A stretch of 64,000 nucleotides of DNA from Candidatus Gastranaerophilales bacterium (GCA_947630045.1 CANRGC010000002.1:1-64000); one strand, 5' to 3'. Shown: positions 1-40,443, counted from the stretch's first letter. Program-made: numbers and translations. The notes: generated by a model not told the origin, from the sequence alone.

Positions 1-26
1 TGCAGGTGGGAAAATAATTTTGAGCC

Positions 27-190
27 AACTTTCCGTAATACGCAAACTAAACGTTTCACCAACAAAAGTCCGAAAAGGCCGTTTTGTAAACGGGTAGTTT
101 GCGTATTTAAGGGCAGCTCAAACCCAAACAGGAAGCCAACACCACCGAAAAAATTAAACTAACCGTAAATATCAAATTACTCTTTTCAAT
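27..190. repeat. Repeat element P, left copy, with long hairpin
   Basis: This non-coding block recurs near 5611-5775 in the same orientation. It opens with a hairpin whose arms are 37-49 (AATACGCAAACTA) and 95-107 (TAGTTTGCGTATT), a perfect 13-bp inverted repeat that extends inward through CGTTT/AAACG. A segment starting 'AACCCAAACAGGAAGCC' and two 13-bp motif copies 18 bp apart (149-161 and 167-179) follow. The arm-to-arm distance, 58 bp, is the same as in the right copy. The first 26 bases of the window resemble the end of element Q, so the window begins inside a Q-P junction. No protein-coding signal is seen. Confidence 0.75.
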
Positions 191-378
191 ACAACTACAG
201 TTATCTTAAGACCAATAAAAGTCCAATTCGACCGTTTTGAAATTGCGATACTCAACCGACTTCCGACCGGCTATGAGTTAGTATTGTCGTGTAAGTTCGC
301 CCTCTCAATATATTTACCCCTTCCGACCAAAACGGACTTTAAATATACACAAGCAAAAAATAATCGTTTCAACCGTAC

Positions 379-500
379 AAATCCTCTGTCCTGTAAAGGT
401 ACAAATTTTTCAAAACGGTCTTTTCCGAAATAATCGTGCCTAAGCGTACACTTCAAACACATAGCCTGAAATGCAGGCAGGGGAATAGTTTTAATTCAAC
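379..500. repeat. Repeat element Q, left copy
   Basis: About 120 bp, strongly similar and in direct orientation to 5494-5612. Shared stretches include 'GTCCTGTAAAGGTACAAA', 'GGTCTTTTCCGAAATAATC' and 'GGGGAATAGTTTTAATTCAA'. Inside it the right copy reads AATAATCAAACTA where this copy reads AATAATCGTGCCTA, so the 13-bp motif has diverged here. Together with the right copy it brackets the restriction and putative abortive-infection genes. The 191-378 stretch between P and Q carries a degenerate piece of P (AAAAGTCC followed by ACCGTTTTG near 225-240) and no convincing gene. Confidence 0.75.
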
Positions 501-510
501 TGCCAAAAGA

Positions 511-550
511 CACTTAGTTTGATTATTTGGATCACTTAGTTTGAGTATTA
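511..550. repeat. Two tandem ~22-bp repeats with TAGTTTGA core
   Basis: CACTTAGTTTGATTATT (511-527) is followed by CACTTAGTTTGAGTATT (533-549), a 22-bp period. The core TAGTTTGnnTATT is the same 13-bp motif that forms the hairpin arms in element P. From 551 to 824 there is only AT-rich, non-coding sequence, with short inverted repeats (for example GGCAA...TTGCC near 719-741) and AT-rich promoter-like sequence (TATAAT at 801-806) just ahead of the methyltransferase gene. Confidence 0.6.
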
Positions 551-824
551 CTTCCCTCAGGCTGGAAACGAACCAAGGTTTTTATTATTCAATTTATGCG
601 TGAATATTGGCTTTCGACATTCACAAATTCATATTAACTCTATTTTAATCAGATTTCAAGTGGTTTGAGCCGGGGAAATTTCCCTAATTTTATTTTTCAA
701 TCTATATTTGGATTTGATGGCAAAAATTTGAAAAATTGCCTCGCTGAAACCCCTAATTTTTCGTTCGATTTTGGCAACTTTTCCCCGACATGATAAAAAA
801 TATAATTTGATGTAATATAAGTTT

Positions 825-1628
825 ATGAAAAAATACTATGAAAAAGACAACATAAAGCTCTTTTTAGGTGATTGCATTGAAATACTCAATAAGGCAACAC
901 CTGAATCTGTTGATATGATTTTTGCAGACCCACCATATATGCTTTCTAATGGTGGAATAACCTGTCAATCCGGCAAAGTTGTTTCCGTTAACAAGGGGAA
1001 ATGGGATGAAAGTAAAGGACTGGAAGAAGATTTTGAATTTCATCAAAGGTGGATTAATGCTTGTAAAAGAGTTTTAAAACCTAACGGTACAATTTGGATT
1101 TCAGGAACGTATCATTCAATCTATTCTTGCGGTTTTGCTTTGCAAAAAGCAGGTTTTAAAATTCTAAATGACATCTGTTGGTTTAAACCAAATGCTTCTC
1201 CAAATATGAGTTGCAGATATTTTACGGCAAGTCATGAAATTTTATTATGGGCAAGAAAAGACCCCAAAAGCAAGCATACGTTCAATTATGAAACAATGAA
1301 AAACGGTGATTGGGGAGAGGATATTCTTAAAAAGCCAAATAAACAAATGCGTTCAGTTTGGCAAATAGATACTCCAAAACCATCTGAAAAAGAATTTGGG
1401 AAACACCCTACTCAAAAACCTTTAGAATTGTTAAGACGCATAATCCTTGCCTCAACGAACAAAGGTGATTTAATTTTAGATCCATTTACAGGAAGCTCAA
1501 CAACTGGTATAATGGCATTAGAGTTAGACAGGAAATTTATTGGAATAGACTTAGAGAAAGAATACTTAAACCTTTCTGTTAAAAGGTTTGAGCAAGTATT
1601 TTCAAAGAAAGATAAAGCATGGCAGTAG
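825..1628 (+). CDS. dpnA: DpnII-type adenine-specific DNA methyltransferase, beta class (DpnA-like)
   Basis: N6-adenine methyltransferase of 267 aa, essentially the length of DpnA (M2.DpnII, 268 aa). The catalytic DPPY is at residues 35-38 and the SAM-binding DPFTGS at 219-224; DPPY before the SAM motif is the beta-class order. In the DpnII system the homologue methylates adenine in GATC and also acts on single-stranded DNA; that is family knowledge. The ATG at 825 has no clear Shine-Dalgarno, but TAATAT ends 6 nt before it. The gene overlaps the downstream Dam-like gene by 10 nt, implying a coupled M operon. Specificity for GATC is inferred from the clear DpnII nuclease nearby. Confidence 0.93.
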   Translation: MKKYYEKDNIKLFLGDCIEILNKATPESVDMIFADPPYMLSNGGITCQSGKVVSVNKGKWDESKGLEEDFEFHQRWINACKRVLKPNGTIWISGTYHSIYSCGFALQKAGFKILNDICWFKPNASPNMSCRYFTASHEILLWARKDPKSKHTFNYETMKNGDWGEDILKKPNKQMRSVWQIDTPKPSEKEFGKHPTQKPLELLRRIILASTNKGDLILDPFTGSSTTGIMALELDRKFIGIDLEKEYLNLSVKRFEQVFSKKDKAWQ

Positions 1629-2458
1629 TTTTAGAACAATTAAAAAACGAAACATATCCAATTGTTAAATGGGTTGGTGGCAAACGTCAGCTTATGTTTG
1701 AATTGATTAAAAACATGCCAAAATCATATAATCGCTACTTTGAACCTTTTATTGGTGGAGGGGCTTTATTCTTTGATTTACAACCCGAAAACGCTTATAT
1801 TTCCGATATGAACGAGGAATTAATTAATCTTTACTCAGTTGTTAGAGATAATGTTTATGAACTTATTGAAGATTTGAGTAAGCATGAAGTTTCAAAAGAA
1901 TATTTTTTAGAAATTCGAAATATTGATAGAACTGAAAAATATGCAGAATTGTCAAATATAGAAAGAGCAAGTCGCTTTATTTATTTGAATAGAACCTGTT
2001 TTAACGGAATGTATAGAGTGAACTCTCAGGGGCAGTTCAATGTTCCTTTTGGACATTACAAGAATCCTCGAATTATTGATGAAAACAATCTTTTGAATTG
2101 TTCAGAACTTCTAAAAAAGACTGAAATTAAGTGTGCTGATTTTTCAGAGATTTTAAATAAAGTTCAAAAAGGCGATTTTGTTTATTTTGATCCGCCTTAT
2201 GTTCCATTGAACGAGACTTCAAGTTTCACATCATATACAAAAGATGGTTTTGATATTGATATGCAATTCAAACTGCGTGATGTTTGCGATGAATTGGATT
2301 CAATTGGTGTTAAATTTATGCTTTCAAATTCAGATACTAAATTGGTAAATGAATTATATGCAAATTATGAAATTAAAAAAGTTTTTGCTTCTCGTCAAAT
2401 CAATGCTAATGCCGACGGCAGAGGCAAAATTACAGAAGTTTTAGTGAGAAATTATTAA
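1619..2458 (+). CDS. dpnM: Dam/DpnM-type GATC adenine methyltransferase, alpha class
   Basis: A 279-aa DNA adenine methylase of the Dam/DpnM family. It shows the N-terminal KWVGGKRQL signature (residues 17-25), the SAM-binding FEPFIGGGAL (41-50) and the catalytic DPPY at 191-194, the alpha-class order. It protects host GATC sites from the DpnII nuclease encoded at 3049-3912. The start at 1619 lies inside the end of the upstream methyltransferase gene, so the two are probably translated from one message. It converges with the 173-aa minus-strand gene; the two stop codons overlap. Full length with no missing motif. Confidence 0.95.
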   Translation: MAVVLEQLKNETYPIVKWVGGKRQLMFELIKNMPKSYNRYFEPFIGGGALFFDLQPENAYISDMNEELINLYSVVRDNVYELIEDLSKHEVSKEYFLEIRNIDRTEKYAELSNIERASRFIYLNRTCFNGMYRVNSQGQFNVPFGHYKNPRIIDENNLLNCSELLKKTEIKCADFSEILNKVQKGDFVYFDPPYVPLNETSSFTSYTKDGFDIDMQFKLRDVCDELDSIGVKFMLSNSDTKLVNELYANYEIKKVFASRQINANADGRGKITEVLVRNY

Positions 2459-2976
2459 GGTTTTGGTACCCCAGACATGAACATTGCCCGACCAGAATAA
2501 TTCCAATAGCGTATGTCTTGTTCAATAAAGAACCATTTAGCAACCTTTAGTATCAAATCTACAGGATATCCAGTATTAAAACTTAAATCTATTTCTGGGA
2601 TTTCTTCGCAATTATAAACATCTTCAATGAGTTTATATAATTTTGCATATTTCTCGGGTGATTCAGCTTTTTTAACTTGTAAGTCACTAAAAATATTATC
2701 ATGCGATGGATTATACTTTATTCTATTTGTTGTTGAAAAATTTATATTTTCGACATTAATAAGAAAATCAAAACCATTATGTAAATTTGCGGGTCTTTCT
2801 AAATAAATTCTATTGCCGTCATTTAATGTTTCAACGTAATATAAATATTTGGATTGATTATCACCATTGCCTGTTCCCGGCATTTCTTTAATAAATTCTG
2901 CAATAATTCTTTCTCTAACTTCATTTCTAGTACCAGAGTTTGAAAAGAATTTTTCTATTTTATTAGCTACAACCAT
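2455..2976 (-). CDS. Unknown protein encoded antisense between DpnII M and R genes
   Basis: A 173-aa protein I do not recognise. The start is supported by AAGGA just upstream of the ATG on the minus strand. No signal peptide, membrane segment or clear helix-turn-helix is visible. The C-terminus is aromatic-rich (a 'KWFFIEQDIRYWNYSGR' stretch) and ends in GVPKP. It lies tail-to-tail with dpnM and head-to-head with the nuclease gene, with only ~72 bp between its start and that of dpnII, so a shared divergent control region is possible. It may be an accessory or regulatory partner of the restriction system, but that rests only on position. Confidence 0.75.
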   Translation of the reverse strand: MVVANKIEKFFSNSGTRNEVRERIIAEFIKEMPGTGNGDNQSKYLYYVETLNDGNRIYLERPANLHNGFDFLINVENINFSTTNRIKYNPSHDNIFSDLQVKKAESPEKYAKLYKLIEDVYNCEEIPEIDLSFNTGYPVDLILKVAKWFFIEQDIRYWNYSGRAMFMSGVPKP

Positions 2977-3048
2977 ACATTCCTTTTCTTAACAAATAAC
3001 AATAAATTGCATGCTCATGCTATCATAAAAATATACAGGAGAATATAC

Positions 3049-3912
3049 ATGAAAAGAGCCTTTAAGGAATGGTTATCTACATTTAGACCTTGTATTGCAG
3101 ATTATTGCTACTATGTAGATTTTGAAAAAGTAAATAAAAATGTTGATGATATTAAAGTTGAATTAAATATTTTAAATTCGCTAGTTGGCTCAAAAAACAT
3201 TGAAAAAGATTTTGAAGATATTATCAAAAAATATCCTGAAACTCTAAAATGTATTCCATTGCTCTTGGCTGTTCGTTCTAACGAAATTTCTGTTACAGAT
3301 GCTGATGGAGAATACAAATTCTCTTTTAGGAAACAAAACTACAGCATAGATGATTATAAAATGTTTATGAAAAAGACTAAACTGTTTGATTTGTTGGAAA
3401 ATCATATTGTAAGCAATTTAGTAGATTATGCAACAGGTGTAGAAACAGGATTAGATAGTAACGGTCGAAAAAATCGTGGCGGACATTTGATGGAAAATCT
3501 TGTTGAAGATTACATCCAAAAAGCCGGATTTATTAAAGGTCAAAACTATTTCAAAGAAATGTATATCCACGAAATTGAAGAAAAATGGAATGTTAATCTT
3601 TCCGCTATTTCCAATCAAGGCAAAATGGAAAAACGCTTTGATTTTGTAATAAAAACAGACAATCAAATTTATGTAATCGAAACAAACTTCTATTCAAGTG
3701 GGGGTTCAAAACTTAATGAAACCGCAAGAAGTTATAAAACCCTAGCACAAGAAGTTACAACAATAGATGGTGTAACCTTTATTTGGTTTACTGATGGTTG
3801 TGGTTGGAATAGTGCAAGGCATAACTTAGAAGAAACTTTTGATGTTTTGGACACAGTATATAATATTCAAGATTTGGAAGATGGTATTTTGAATAAAATG
3901 AATTCTAAATAG
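3049..3912 (+). CDS. dpnB: Type II restriction endonuclease DpnII (GATC)
   Basis: Restriction endonuclease of 287 aa, the size of R.DpnII (288 aa). Its N-terminal 'EWLSTFRPCIADYCYYVDF' and the blocks 'VSNLVDYATGVETGLDSNG', 'KRFDFVIKTDNQIYVIE' and 'SKLNETARSYK' closely match remembered R.DpnII sequence. The D-x(n)-ExN core (FDFVIK...VIETNF) looks like the metal-binding nuclease site. It cuts unmethylated GATC. I chose ATG 3049, preceded by CAGGAG, over the upstream in-frame ATG at 3007 because family similarity begins there. It is separated from the methyltransferases by an antisense gene and so must have its own promoter, unlike the compact pneumococcal operon. Confidence 0.95.
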   Translation: MKRAFKEWLSTFRPCIADYCYYVDFEKVNKNVDDIKVELNILNSLVGSKNIEKDFEDIIKKYPETLKCIPLLLAVRSNEISVTDADGEYKFSFRKQNYSIDDYKMFMKKTKLFDLLENHIVSNLVDYATGVETGLDSNGRKNRGGHLMENLVEDYIQKAGFIKGQNYFKEMYIHEIEEKWNVNLSAISNQGKMEKRFDFVIKTDNQIYVIETNFYSSGGSKLNETARSYKTLAQEVTTIDGVTFIWFTDGCGWNSARHNLEETFDVLDTVYNIQDLEDGILNKMNSK

Positions 3913-3923
3913 GAAAGGAAAAA

Positions 3924-4730
3924 ATGGAAGGATATAAAGAGCTAACTTTTTCTACATTTCAACTTTTTATAAATGAAAGCTTTGCAGAATTAAAAAATTT
4001 TAATATTAATGACAAATGGAGTCAGAATTTTTCGGATGAAAATCAAACTATTCATAATGTTGTTTGTAAAATAATGAACGAGAAGTATTTTACTCTATAT
4101 GATAATTTCGGTTCTCCAAACCCGAGACCAAATCATATATATGACATCCCTACTAAGACCAAAATTCTTAATCCAAGAAAAAATAATCAAGCAGAATTAA
4201 AAAATCAATTATTTTGCTTATATGATACAAATACAAGAATTTTATATTTAAACAATTCACAAAAGAAATCTTTCATTTGTAAATACTTAGATAATATATT
4301 ATCTCAAGAAATAATCATAAAAAACGTATATAAAAATATTGATGAATTTGTTAATATTTTAAAATCTTTAGATGAAATAAAATTTACTGCCCATAGAGAT
4401 ATTTTTGGCTCACAAATAAATTCATTTAAAAGTGTAAGAGATTTGTTTGGAATAGATGAACCAGAAAGTTTTACTATTAGTGCTAAGTATAAAGTTTCAG
4501 TTAAAGAAAATATAAAAAGAACAATTGAAAAATTTAGAAATGAACAAATTCAAGTACCAAACTCTTGTTTAACCTGTATTGGCAAAGATGAAAATGGACT
4601 TGAACAAATATTTAATGAAAACACTTTTAATAAAACCATATCTGTTATTCTTGCACAAAATGAAGAAAAACTACTTAATCCTAAAGATGTATTTGAAGAA
4701 TTAATTAGGAAATTAGAAAGCAATGCATAA
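3924..4730 (+). CDS. Putative RexA-like abortive infection sensor
   Basis: A 268-aa soluble protein without signal peptide or membrane helix, preceded by a good Shine-Dalgarno (AGGAAAGG) 11 nt after the nuclease stop. It overlaps the next gene, a 145-aa membrane protein, by 8 nt. Lambda RexA (279 aa) with RexB (144 aa, four membrane helices) has the same order, sizes and topology. The C-terminal third also resembles RexA loosely: a basic 'AKYKVSVKENIKRTIEKF' block followed by an acidic 'GKDENG' turn. RexA is a DNA-binding sensor that activates the RexB channel during infection. The assignment is inference from layout and weak similarity; a different Abi family is possible. Confidence 0.55.
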   Translation: MEGYKELTFSTFQLFINESFAELKNFNINDKWSQNFSDENQTIHNVVCKIMNEKYFTLYDNFGSPNPRPNHIYDIPTKTKILNPRKNNQAELKNQLFCLYDTNTRILYLNNSQKKSFICKYLDNILSQEIIIKNVYKNIDEFVNILKSLDEIKFTAHRDIFGSQINSFKSVRDLFGIDEPESFTISAKYKVSVKENIKRTIEKFRNEQIQVPNSCLTCIGKDENGLEQIFNENTFNKTISVILAQNEEKLLNPKDVFEELIRKLESNA

Positions 4731-5160
4731 AATTGATAATATCTTAACAGTAATAATTTTTATATCAACATCATTATTATTCTATTTTTTAAAATTAGAT
4801 TATAATGATACATTTTACACAAATACAATTACATACTTATCTGTCTCATTTGGCTTTATCGTCACTAGTCTGTCAATATTATATAATTCCACATATATAA
4901 AAGGACTCTATAAAAATAAGGACTATGAATCAAGCACATTAACTGTATTACACAGATTGGGGCGATATTATAAAATTAGTATTTATTACTCTGTATTTTT
5001 GATTTTGTATTTTATAGTTTTAAATCAAATTACACCAAAATATATATTTATTCAAAATATAGAATTTATGAATTTGCCATTATTGTTTTGTAATGTATTC
5101 ATAACATTGGTTTTAATGAAATTTTTTATTAAACTATTTGTTAATCCAAATTATAAATAA
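4723..5160 (+). CDS. Small four-helix membrane protein, putative RexB-like effector
   Basis: A 145-aa protein with four predicted membrane segments at about residues 7-24, 35-53, 85-101 and 116-138, a short basic cytoplasmic loop between segments 2 and 3, and a lysine at the C-terminus. It starts inside the end of the upstream gene (8-nt overlap), so the pair is expressed together. Lambda RexB is 144 aa, has four membrane helices and follows rexA directly; it acts as an ion channel that depolarises the infected cell. There is no clear sequence identity that I can quote, so the RexB role is an inference. It is the last gene of the island before the right-hand repeats. Confidence 0.55.
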   Translation: MHKIDNILTVIIFISTSLLFYFLKLDYNDTFYTNTITYLSVSFGFIVTSLSILYNSTYIKGLYKNKDYESSTLTVLHRLGRYYKISIYYSVFLILYFIVLNQITPKYIFIQNIEFMNLPLLFCNVFITLVLMKFFIKLFVNPNYK

Positions 5161-5493
5161 TTTTAAAATATTTACTATCATTTACACAATTTAATCTAAT
5201 ACTTCCTACCTTTTTAAAAACTTCTGCCTCTGAAAATTTTTAATAAAAATTTCGTTATTTTTTTATTTCGTCCAACCTACGAATAATTATTTCAAGTGTA
5301 TAAAATCGAAAAAATTTGGCGAACAGGCTAAAAACTTTTGCGTGGACAAAATTAGAACATAAAAAGGAACTAATCTGACTTGTAGGCTCAAAAATGGACT
5401 TTTAGGACAGGGGAAAATAATTAATCGCAGATTGTCCCCATAGAAAAAAGCCGACACGCAGGCGATTAAACCGAAATATCGTTTTAAACTTAG

Positions 5494-5612
5494 AAATCCT
5501 ATGTCCTGTAAAGGTACAAAATTCTCAAATTGGTCTTTTCCGAAATAATCAAACTAAGCGTACACTCCAAACACACAGCTGAAATGCAGACAGGGGAATA
5601 GTTTTAATTCAA
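5494..5612. repeat. Repeat element Q, right copy
   Basis: Direct copy of 379-500 with a run of shared blocks and scattered substitutions. It contains the 13-bp motif AATAATCAAACTA at 5544-5556. Here Q is followed immediately by P, whereas on the left P precedes Q with about 190 bp between. The upstream stretch 5161-5493 is AT-rich and non-coding; nothing recognisable was found there apart from weak resemblance to the GGGGAAAATAATT type sequence at the window start. Confidence 0.75.
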
Positions 5613-5803
5613 CTTTCCGTAATGATCATACTAACCGTTTATCCAAAAAAAGTCCAAAAAGACCGTTTTGTAAACGGGTAGTTTGATTATTTCCGACAGC
5701 TAAAACCCAAACAGGAAGCCAACTTTCCGTAAAAATCAAACTAACCGTAAATATCAAATTACTCTTTCCAACTACAATCAAACTATCCGTAAAAAGCAAA
5801 CTA
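5611..5803. repeat. Repeat element P, right copy, with hairpin and 18-bp motif array
   Basis: Hairpin arms at 5621-5633 (AATGATCATACTA) and 5679-5691 (TAGTTTGATTATT) extend inward through ACCGTTTA/TAAACGGG, giving a ~20-bp imperfect stem. After 'AACCCAAACAGGAAGCCAAC' come four motif copies at 5731, 5749, 5773 and 5791 (consensus AAAAATCAAACTA, often preceded by CCGT), mostly 18 bp apart. Relative to the left copy, both arms change together, CGC/GCG to ATC/GAT. The block ends about 45 bp from the 3' end of the tRNA gene. Confidence 0.75.
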
Positions 5804-5847
5804 CTCAATTAACAACACAATAGTCGAACTCGCCAAATTAGAAAAAA

Positions 5848-5919
5848 TGGGCCCGGAGGGATTCGAACCCGCGACCAAGGGATTATGAGTCCCCTGCTCT
5901 ACCGCTGAGCTACAGGCCC
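5848..5919 (-). tRNA. tRNA with CAT anticodon (probably Ile2/lysidine type, or elongator Met)
   Basis: The minus strand gives a complete cloverleaf: acceptor GGGCCTG/CGGGCCC, D arm with GTAGCTCAGCGGTAGAGC, anticodon loop CTCATAA, variable loop TTGGTC and T loop TTCGAAT. The CTCATAA loop and following CTTGGTCG resemble bacterial tRNA-Ile(CAT), whose C34 is converted to lysidine, more than elongator tRNA-Met, which usually has TTCATAC; sequence alone cannot decide. The T stem carries one apparent C-U mismatch (positions 50/64). No CCA is encoded; six T follow the discriminator A. Its 3' end faces the defence island. Confidence 0.9.
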
Positions 5920-40177: not shown

Positions 40178-40443
40178 AAAAAGCCGTGTTTTCTATCTAT
40201 CGGTAAGTTAACAAAATGTTCAAACATCAAAATATCTCCTTTTTTTAATCAAACACCCGTTAACTTCATCTTAGTGCTGCTGTGTTTCCACCCTGACACG
40301 GTTCAATACATAATCGCCGTTCGAATTAAAAAATATCAACAACATTTCAATGTTCAAGCCAAAAGTTAATTCGCCTCACAATAGCCTCTATGCCCCGCAT
40401 AAGCTTCGGGTCAAGGGTTCGCAAAACCCCGCAGAAACACGGC
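40178..40443 (-). ncRNA. ffs: Signal recognition particle RNA, large type with Alu domain
   Basis: On the minus strand the S-domain hairpin is unmistakable: TGTCAGGGTGGAAACACAGC followed by AGCA (about 40274-40302), with GTCAGG and AGCAGC forming the asymmetric loop around a GGAA tetraloop. The RNA starts GCCGTGTTTCTGCGGGG (40443 downward), like Bacillus scRNA (TGCCGTGCTAAGCGGGG), and its 3' end AGAAAACACGGC (40183 upward) pairs with that 5' end and runs into TTTTT. The intervening strands are collinearly complementary, giving a ~266-nt rod with an Alu-type 5' domain. TATAAT sits at 40444-40449. It partners Ffh in co-translational membrane targeting. Confidence 0.88.

Follow-up and report, generated by a model that had tools for sequence, protein, structure and literature searches.

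The stretch of DNA analysed here (the window, 64,000 nucleotides from a Candidatus Gastranaerophilales bacterium) starts at position 1 of an assembly contig, and near that edge it carries an island, element A (~501-5817), which is delimited by end motifs and is a derivative without a transposase. Its cargo comprises a DNA methylase (N6_N4_Mtase; 825-1628, plus strand; PF01555, 2.5e-63), a Dam-like adenine methyltransferase (1619-2458, plus; PF02086, 2.1e-73), a 173-aa protein (2455-2976, minus), a DpnII-type restriction endonuclease (3049-3912, plus; PF04556, 1.4e-109), a 268-aa protein (3924-4730, plus) and a 145-aa, apparently membrane protein (4723-5160, plus); those given by length are open reading frames only, for which a Pfam search returned no match. 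The left end (501-551, minus strand), with its tip at 501 (TGCCAAAAGACAC, minus) and two putative binding sites at 515-527 and 537-549, matches the left ends of L161, L188, L087 and others, and the wider left-end region common to other elements (497-799, minus) is 96% identical to L161:208-505 and 79% identical to L188:5268-5559; window positions 510-834 are 87% identical to L087:556-879. The right end (5474-5817, minus) contains at least five putative binding sites in both orientations as well as 18-bp tandem repeats, and its tip at 5817 (TGTTGTTAATTGAG, minus) lies 30 bp from a tRNA-Met (CAT) gene (5848-5919, minus; ARAGORN and Rfam), our landmark for the insertion, whose 3′ end faces the repeat. 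No target duplication was seen around element A. Far downstream, at 40184-40442 (minus), the window also encodes the bacterial large SRP RNA (Rfam RF01854).

The left flank of element A is a mosaic. Positions 1-199 (minus) form the right end of another element, B, with its tip at 199 (minus-strand sequence TGTAGTTGTATTG); this end is 84% identical to 5597-5777 and, over window positions ~1-203, 89% identical to the right end of L188, an autonomous element, and because the window starts at the contig start it is cut off there. A third partial copy, the interior of yet another right end that has been truncated, lies between the two (358-500, minus) and is 87.5% identical to 5474-5614. Element A appears to be stacked on element B. 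We found no transposase of the family described below in element A or in the assembled genome of the same organism, and because element A also has no transposition genes within it, it would seem to be a non-autonomous or decaying derivative, in the former case needing a transposase in trans; a transposase copy of this genome may have been lost at contig breaks. The same restriction genes, 78-91% identical, recur at further tRNA genes, within elements or next to them: at tRNA-Ser downstream of a complete transposition module (L110), at tRNA-His (L082), and at tRNA-Met (L130), where a left end follows directly and is itself followed by an autonomous element, as in the window.

The original prediction had singled out a repeated hairpin in these flanks, with arms starting at 37/95 and 5621/5679, and this proved correct. 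The direct repeats that contain it (27-190 and 5611-5803) are far above chance, 81-84% identical and 5.58 kb apart; the left stem (37-49/95-107, AATACGCAAACTA/TAGTTTGCGTATT), which belongs to the right end of element B, is complementary at 13 of 13 positions, and the right stem (5621-5633/5679-5691) pairs at 11 of 13. The recurrence of the 13-bp motif in both flanks also stands: allowing up to two mismatches, it has 28 matches in the window vs 20.8 expected, but 13 of these fall within 1-550 and 5540-5803, about 1% of the window, and its 18-bp tandem form has 4 matches vs 0.13 expected. The joint change of both arms from CGC/GCG to ATC/GAT comes down to two pairs that are compensated between the window copies, with two others broken. 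The adjoining tRNA-Met gene, the contig start at position 1 and the third partial copy at 358-500 had escaped the original prediction. Each hairpin arm appears to be one copy of a putative transposase-binding site.

The repeated element is very probably the tRNA-proximal right end of a tRNA-homing, Mu/Tn7-like transposon family of Gastranaerophilales, the window copy being a transposase-less derivative. Copies were found in 13 of the 38 genomes searched, including the window's own, where a second locus (C18) lies beside tRNA-Ile; the other genomes belong to the same genus (four), to other genera of the family (six) and to other families of the order (two). Of the window and 20 fetched loci, 21 sequences in all, 17 contain a tRNA gene, with isotypes including Met, Ile, Asn, Arg, Phe, Ser and His, and the copies enclose different cargo, which bears out the earlier suggestion of a mobile or cassette-like system. 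Named loci are mostly Candidatus Gastranaerophilales or Melainabacteria records. Nearly the same elements occur in records named Fusobacterium sp. CAG:439 (L170, L177) and Acinetobacter sp. (L203, L206) and in others likewise named for other groups (L149, L161, L168, L174); the most likely reason is that metagenome bins were misnamed or mixed, and not that the elements were widely transferred.

In relatives, a gene for a DDE transposase starts directly behind the right end and lies between the two ends, so that the recombinase gene whose co-occurrence had been proposed as a check does exist. Among 117 sampled genomes of the class, 29 have this transposase (E<=1e-40), all of them from the window's own family; it occurs additionally in another family of the order (G033, G028). 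The protein is ~670 aa long and contains Mu-transpos_C (PF09299, 2.7e-15), HTH_Tnp_Mu_2 and rve domains; its profile matches PHROG 310 (2.5e-112) and, among solved structures in the PDB, MuA (4fcy, 6.5e-14) and ShTnsB (2e-6). It is followed by a TniB/TnsC-like AAA+ ATPase (PF13401, 7e-17; PF05621, 8e-8), which matches ShTnsC/VchTnsC and MuB weakly, then by a third protein and often by more genes. Among the annotated open reading frames of the elements we noticed no TnsA endonuclease, which Tn7 itself has. Cargo varies among elements and is often anti-phage; in the 21-kb G033 element (L221:9770-15336) it includes ABC efflux genes and the anti-phage system Shango (SngABC). A second, divergent Mu-like DDE transposase is found in ~20 loci, often with a second ATPase after it (L084:2698-4692; L146:9878-12734), and these are two transposition modules within one element. 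Downstream of the third gene, a conserved block of ~48 bp (AATTCAATA..TTTTGAACACTTTTTGAACGG, with TTTTGAAC twice) recurs at L137:12272-12320, L128:13010-13055, L079:16994-17033 and others, in L079 just before a small recombinase gene; it may serve as an operator or a resolution site. One contig end (L100:1-700, G017:C10) holds a CRISPR-like array of period 66, ~12 kb from a family transposase gene.

The elements end in TGTA...TACA, with a right-end tip of TGTA(A/G)TT... and a left-end tip of ...TGTTTCTTTACA (from tandem and complete elements), and both ends hold direct and inverted arrays of a 13-18-bp putative transposase-binding site. An inverted-repeat search for the left end found none, and a homology boundary near L128:13343 was considered as the left end and rejected when the element was seen to extend to 21 kb. 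Clean 5-bp target duplications were resolved in two elements: the 21,024-bp element of G033 has AACAG on both sides, and the 15,144-bp element of G017 has GCGCG on both sides. The related genome G028, 91% identical at the site, is without the 21,024-bp element; reciprocally, an element lies behind tRNA-Met in G028 at a site that is empty in G033, its sister species. A duplication of 5 bp is typical of Mu-type transposition. It is typical of Tn7 transposition as well (PMC11406308). The second element of the window's own genome (G000:C18, L087:547-7051; 6,505 bp, behind tRNA-Ile) is flanked instead by a 15-bp direct repeat (AAGGTCGTAAACTCC) and sits at a degenerate second copy of the 3′ part of the tRNA; this repeat does not fit a 5-bp duplication and counts against the explanation we prefer, as do the mosaic left flank and missing duplication of element A and the uneven use of tRNA genes.

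The association with tRNA genes is directional. We compared 63 non-redundant transposase loci for which 5.5 kb or more of upstream sequence was available. A same-strand tRNA gene lies within 5.5 kb upstream in 52 of them, compared with 3 of 63 for an opposite-strand tRNA gene anywhere in the locus, our internal control. Use of the genes is broad and uneven, with 16 anticodons represented and Met and Ser the most frequent. The tRNA gene is left intact, the tip lying 20-137 bp past its 3′ end (median 57, quartiles 50 and 75; 47 flanks in which tips were recognised through family motifs, 8 further flanks having no such motif). When isotype was mapped on the transposase tree (42 loci), it changed 23 times vs a shuffled mean of 23.3, i.e., it is unclustered. 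Complete elements at Ser(CGA), Met and Arg(ACG) have transposases that are 92-97% identical and third proteins that are 95-98% identical, and partial copies with 93-97% identical transposases lie at Ser(TGA) and Ser(GCT). At the sequence level, insertion has a single orientation in almost all cases and shows no dependence on isotype. Because near-identical elements occupy different isotypes and the tree is unclustered, the recognised feature is most likely something common to tRNA genes, and we infer that the machinery of the element reads this shared feature.

Several other explanations must be weighed against such a transposon. The hairpin could function as a structured RNA, or as a site of recombination in folded single-stranded DNA similar to the attC of integrons, its paired changes serving to keep the pairing, as the original prediction had proposed. 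In accordance with this, both 94-nt stretches fold better than 200 of 200 shuffles each (RNA, plus strand; z −5.2 and −4.8), and two base pairs are compensated between the window copies. However, an Rfam search of the window gave no match for the hairpin, and pairing is not conserved among related copies, the inner hairpin being absent, as judged by eye, from 9 of 20 aligned right ends (e.g., L079, L084, L133, L152, L216). Moreover, the GC variant of L188 occurs in direct as well as inverted repeats, and the direct repeats are unable to pair mutually. Base changes specific to a family likewise recur at distances of up to 21 kb, in the left end. The two ends of window-type elements share AATAATCAAACTA; in the G033 element, AATAATCTTTTTAT and AGTAATCGTTTTA occur in the right end and AATAATCATTTACG in the left, with 21 kb between the ends. 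Identical changes at such a distance indicate sites that co-evolve with the transposase rather than base pairing; sites serving one transposase would change together, and pairing would not be needed to explain the paired changes. Since the ends also go with a DDE transposase and 5-bp duplications, not with an integron integrase, we consider a structured RNA or attC-like site very improbable. The chance that a tyrosine recombinase mobilises the islands, with a small recombinase of ~180 aa as the integrase, is slighter still. Genomic islands integrated at tRNA genes usually use such an enzyme, with the crossover inside the gene and the gene end restored. The tRNA-adjacent position and the presence of small, active-looking tyrosine recombinases in several elements would agree with this, but the junction lies behind an intact tRNA gene, both resolved duplications are 5 bp, and in most elements no small recombinase is found near the transposase. 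We therefore rejected the tyrosine-recombinase island and infer that DDE-type machinery moves the element; the small recombinase now looks accessory and, where present, would by analogy likely serve cointegrate resolution, which has been described as the task of a recombinase in elements without TnsA (PMC11406308).

Two further possibilities accept the transposon and question how it reaches tRNA genes. It may not target them at all, inserting broadly behind terminators with selection retaining the harmless insertions behind tRNA genes. A T5 run does lie no more than 90 nt from the 3′ end of the tRNA in 46 of 55 flanks, and the distance from tRNA to tip is variable, not fixed. Yet most genes have terminators and still 52 of 63 insertions are behind tRNA genes, and selection alone would not fix the single orientation observed; we regard this account as unlikely, though less so than those just discussed. 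Alternatively, one could envision RNA-guided targeting, as in CRISPR-associated transposons (CASTs), through a guide matching the tRNA gene. There is precedent in the V-K CASTs, which direct crRNAs at diverse tRNA genes (PMC11406308), and in the occurrence of CASTs among Mu-like transposons (PMC11656645). Against it, the longest match of an element body to its own target is 8-13 nt, no longer than in swapped controls, a repeat scan of the elements found no convincing CRISPR array, and near-identical elements sit at different isotypes, so that a guide is very unlikely.

Returning to protein-based homing by the transposon itself, we favour the third protein as a candidate target selector, on the grounds of gene order and modularity and with reserve; the ATPase or the small helix-turn-helix protein may have this role instead. 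In many elements the ATPase gene overlaps at its end with the third-protein gene. Its product exists in two versions whose N-terminal winged helix is conserved (36% identity over 58 residues; hhalign E 1.6e-9) and whose bodies differ. The form of ~220 aa has a confident predicted model (pLDDT 89), and searches with the third protein of Pfam, PDB sequences and PDB folds gave generic winged helices as the best fold matches (E 0.014 or worse). The form of ~549 aa, encoded directly after the ATPase (L079:14830-16479, L114:13105-14772, L216:9147-10793), has a tyrosine-recombinase-like body in which, as we read the alignment, the catalytic arginines and histidines have apparently been replaced; its AlphaFold model has a pLDDT of 47 (three sequences). 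Of the three elements with this body, the two whose site is known are at tRNA-Met. This modularity would resemble that of the TniQ/TnsD and TnsF selectors (PMC10293859). None of 30 third proteins had a TniQ match at E<=1, and a search of 15 genomes with PF06527 (TniQ) gave no match, with control queries equally silent. In the mechanism we propose, the transposase would bind the site arrays at both ends and the ATPase would bring it to a target marked by the selector; together, ATPase and selector would read a feature common to tRNA genes and steer the element to the stretch behind the gene, where insertion is safe. That tRNA genes are recognised as a class, independently of isotype, through the third protein as a new selector and not through TniQ/TnsD or a guide RNA, is a proposal we advance tentatively, as one that may well turn out otherwise.

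If isotype-blind homing is confirmed, the family would be a naturally occurring system in which proteins guide insertion and each genome offers many safe landing sites, unlike both the single-site mode of TnsD and guidance by RNA; if recognition of the class is true, it would be a prokaryotic counterpart of the eukaryotic elements targeted to tRNA genes. Such homing would explain the shuffling and stacking of anti-phage islands (DpnII-type restriction, Shango, DUF262-like genes) behind tRNA genes in this order of uncultured gut relatives of cyanobacteria, as well as the assembly breaks at these loci.

Among known systems, integrons have a conserved folded hairpin of attC type per cassette, on which IntI acts, whereas here the hairpin is not conserved. 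Phage Mu inserts almost anywhere. Mu and Mu-like transposons (MuA/MuB) have the 5-bp duplication in common with this family, and MuA is the best solved-structure match of its transposase; unlike Mu, the family inserts behind tRNA genes, on the same strand in 52 of 63 loci, and we noticed no phage structural genes among the open reading frames of the 21-kb element. The tRNA-gene-targeted elements of eukaryotes, yeast Ty1/Ty3 and Dictyostelium TRE/DGLT, rely on RNA polymerase III factors, which, to our knowledge, bacteria do not have. They are unrelated to the Gastranaerophilales family and resemble it in integrating near tRNA genes of any isotype while sparing the gene. This family was described nowhere in the literature we searched, which did not include the survey of cyanobacterial Tn7 elements PMC9881144. 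Tn7-like transposons that carry cargo and lie behind tRNA genes have been described before, and site arrays of this kind have served to locate their ends (PMC8649781). Those with tRNA attachment sites (I-B2, I-D and V-K CASTs and their non-CRISPR relatives) share with the present family a TnsB-like transposase, a TnsC-like ATPase, TGT...ACA-type ends with site arrays, a 5-bp duplication, oriented insertion behind tRNA genes and defence cargo (PMC11406308, PMC8649781). Tn6022 with TnsF, and Tsy (Faure et al. 2023, PMC10293859), come close in that one version of the third protein here has a tyrosine-recombinase-like body with its catalytic residues apparently lost, like TnsF. In Tn6022 this inactive recombinase is a selector that works with TniQ and targets comM; in the present family no TniQ partner was recognised, the target is a tRNA gene, and in most members the body of the third protein is of another, unrelated kind. 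Relative to the Tn7-like transposons, each with a single attachment site, what is new is a transposase nearer to MuA, the lack of a recognised TniQ/TnsD or CRISPR guide, and an apparently isotype-blind tRNA homing by which one lineage occupies many isotypes.
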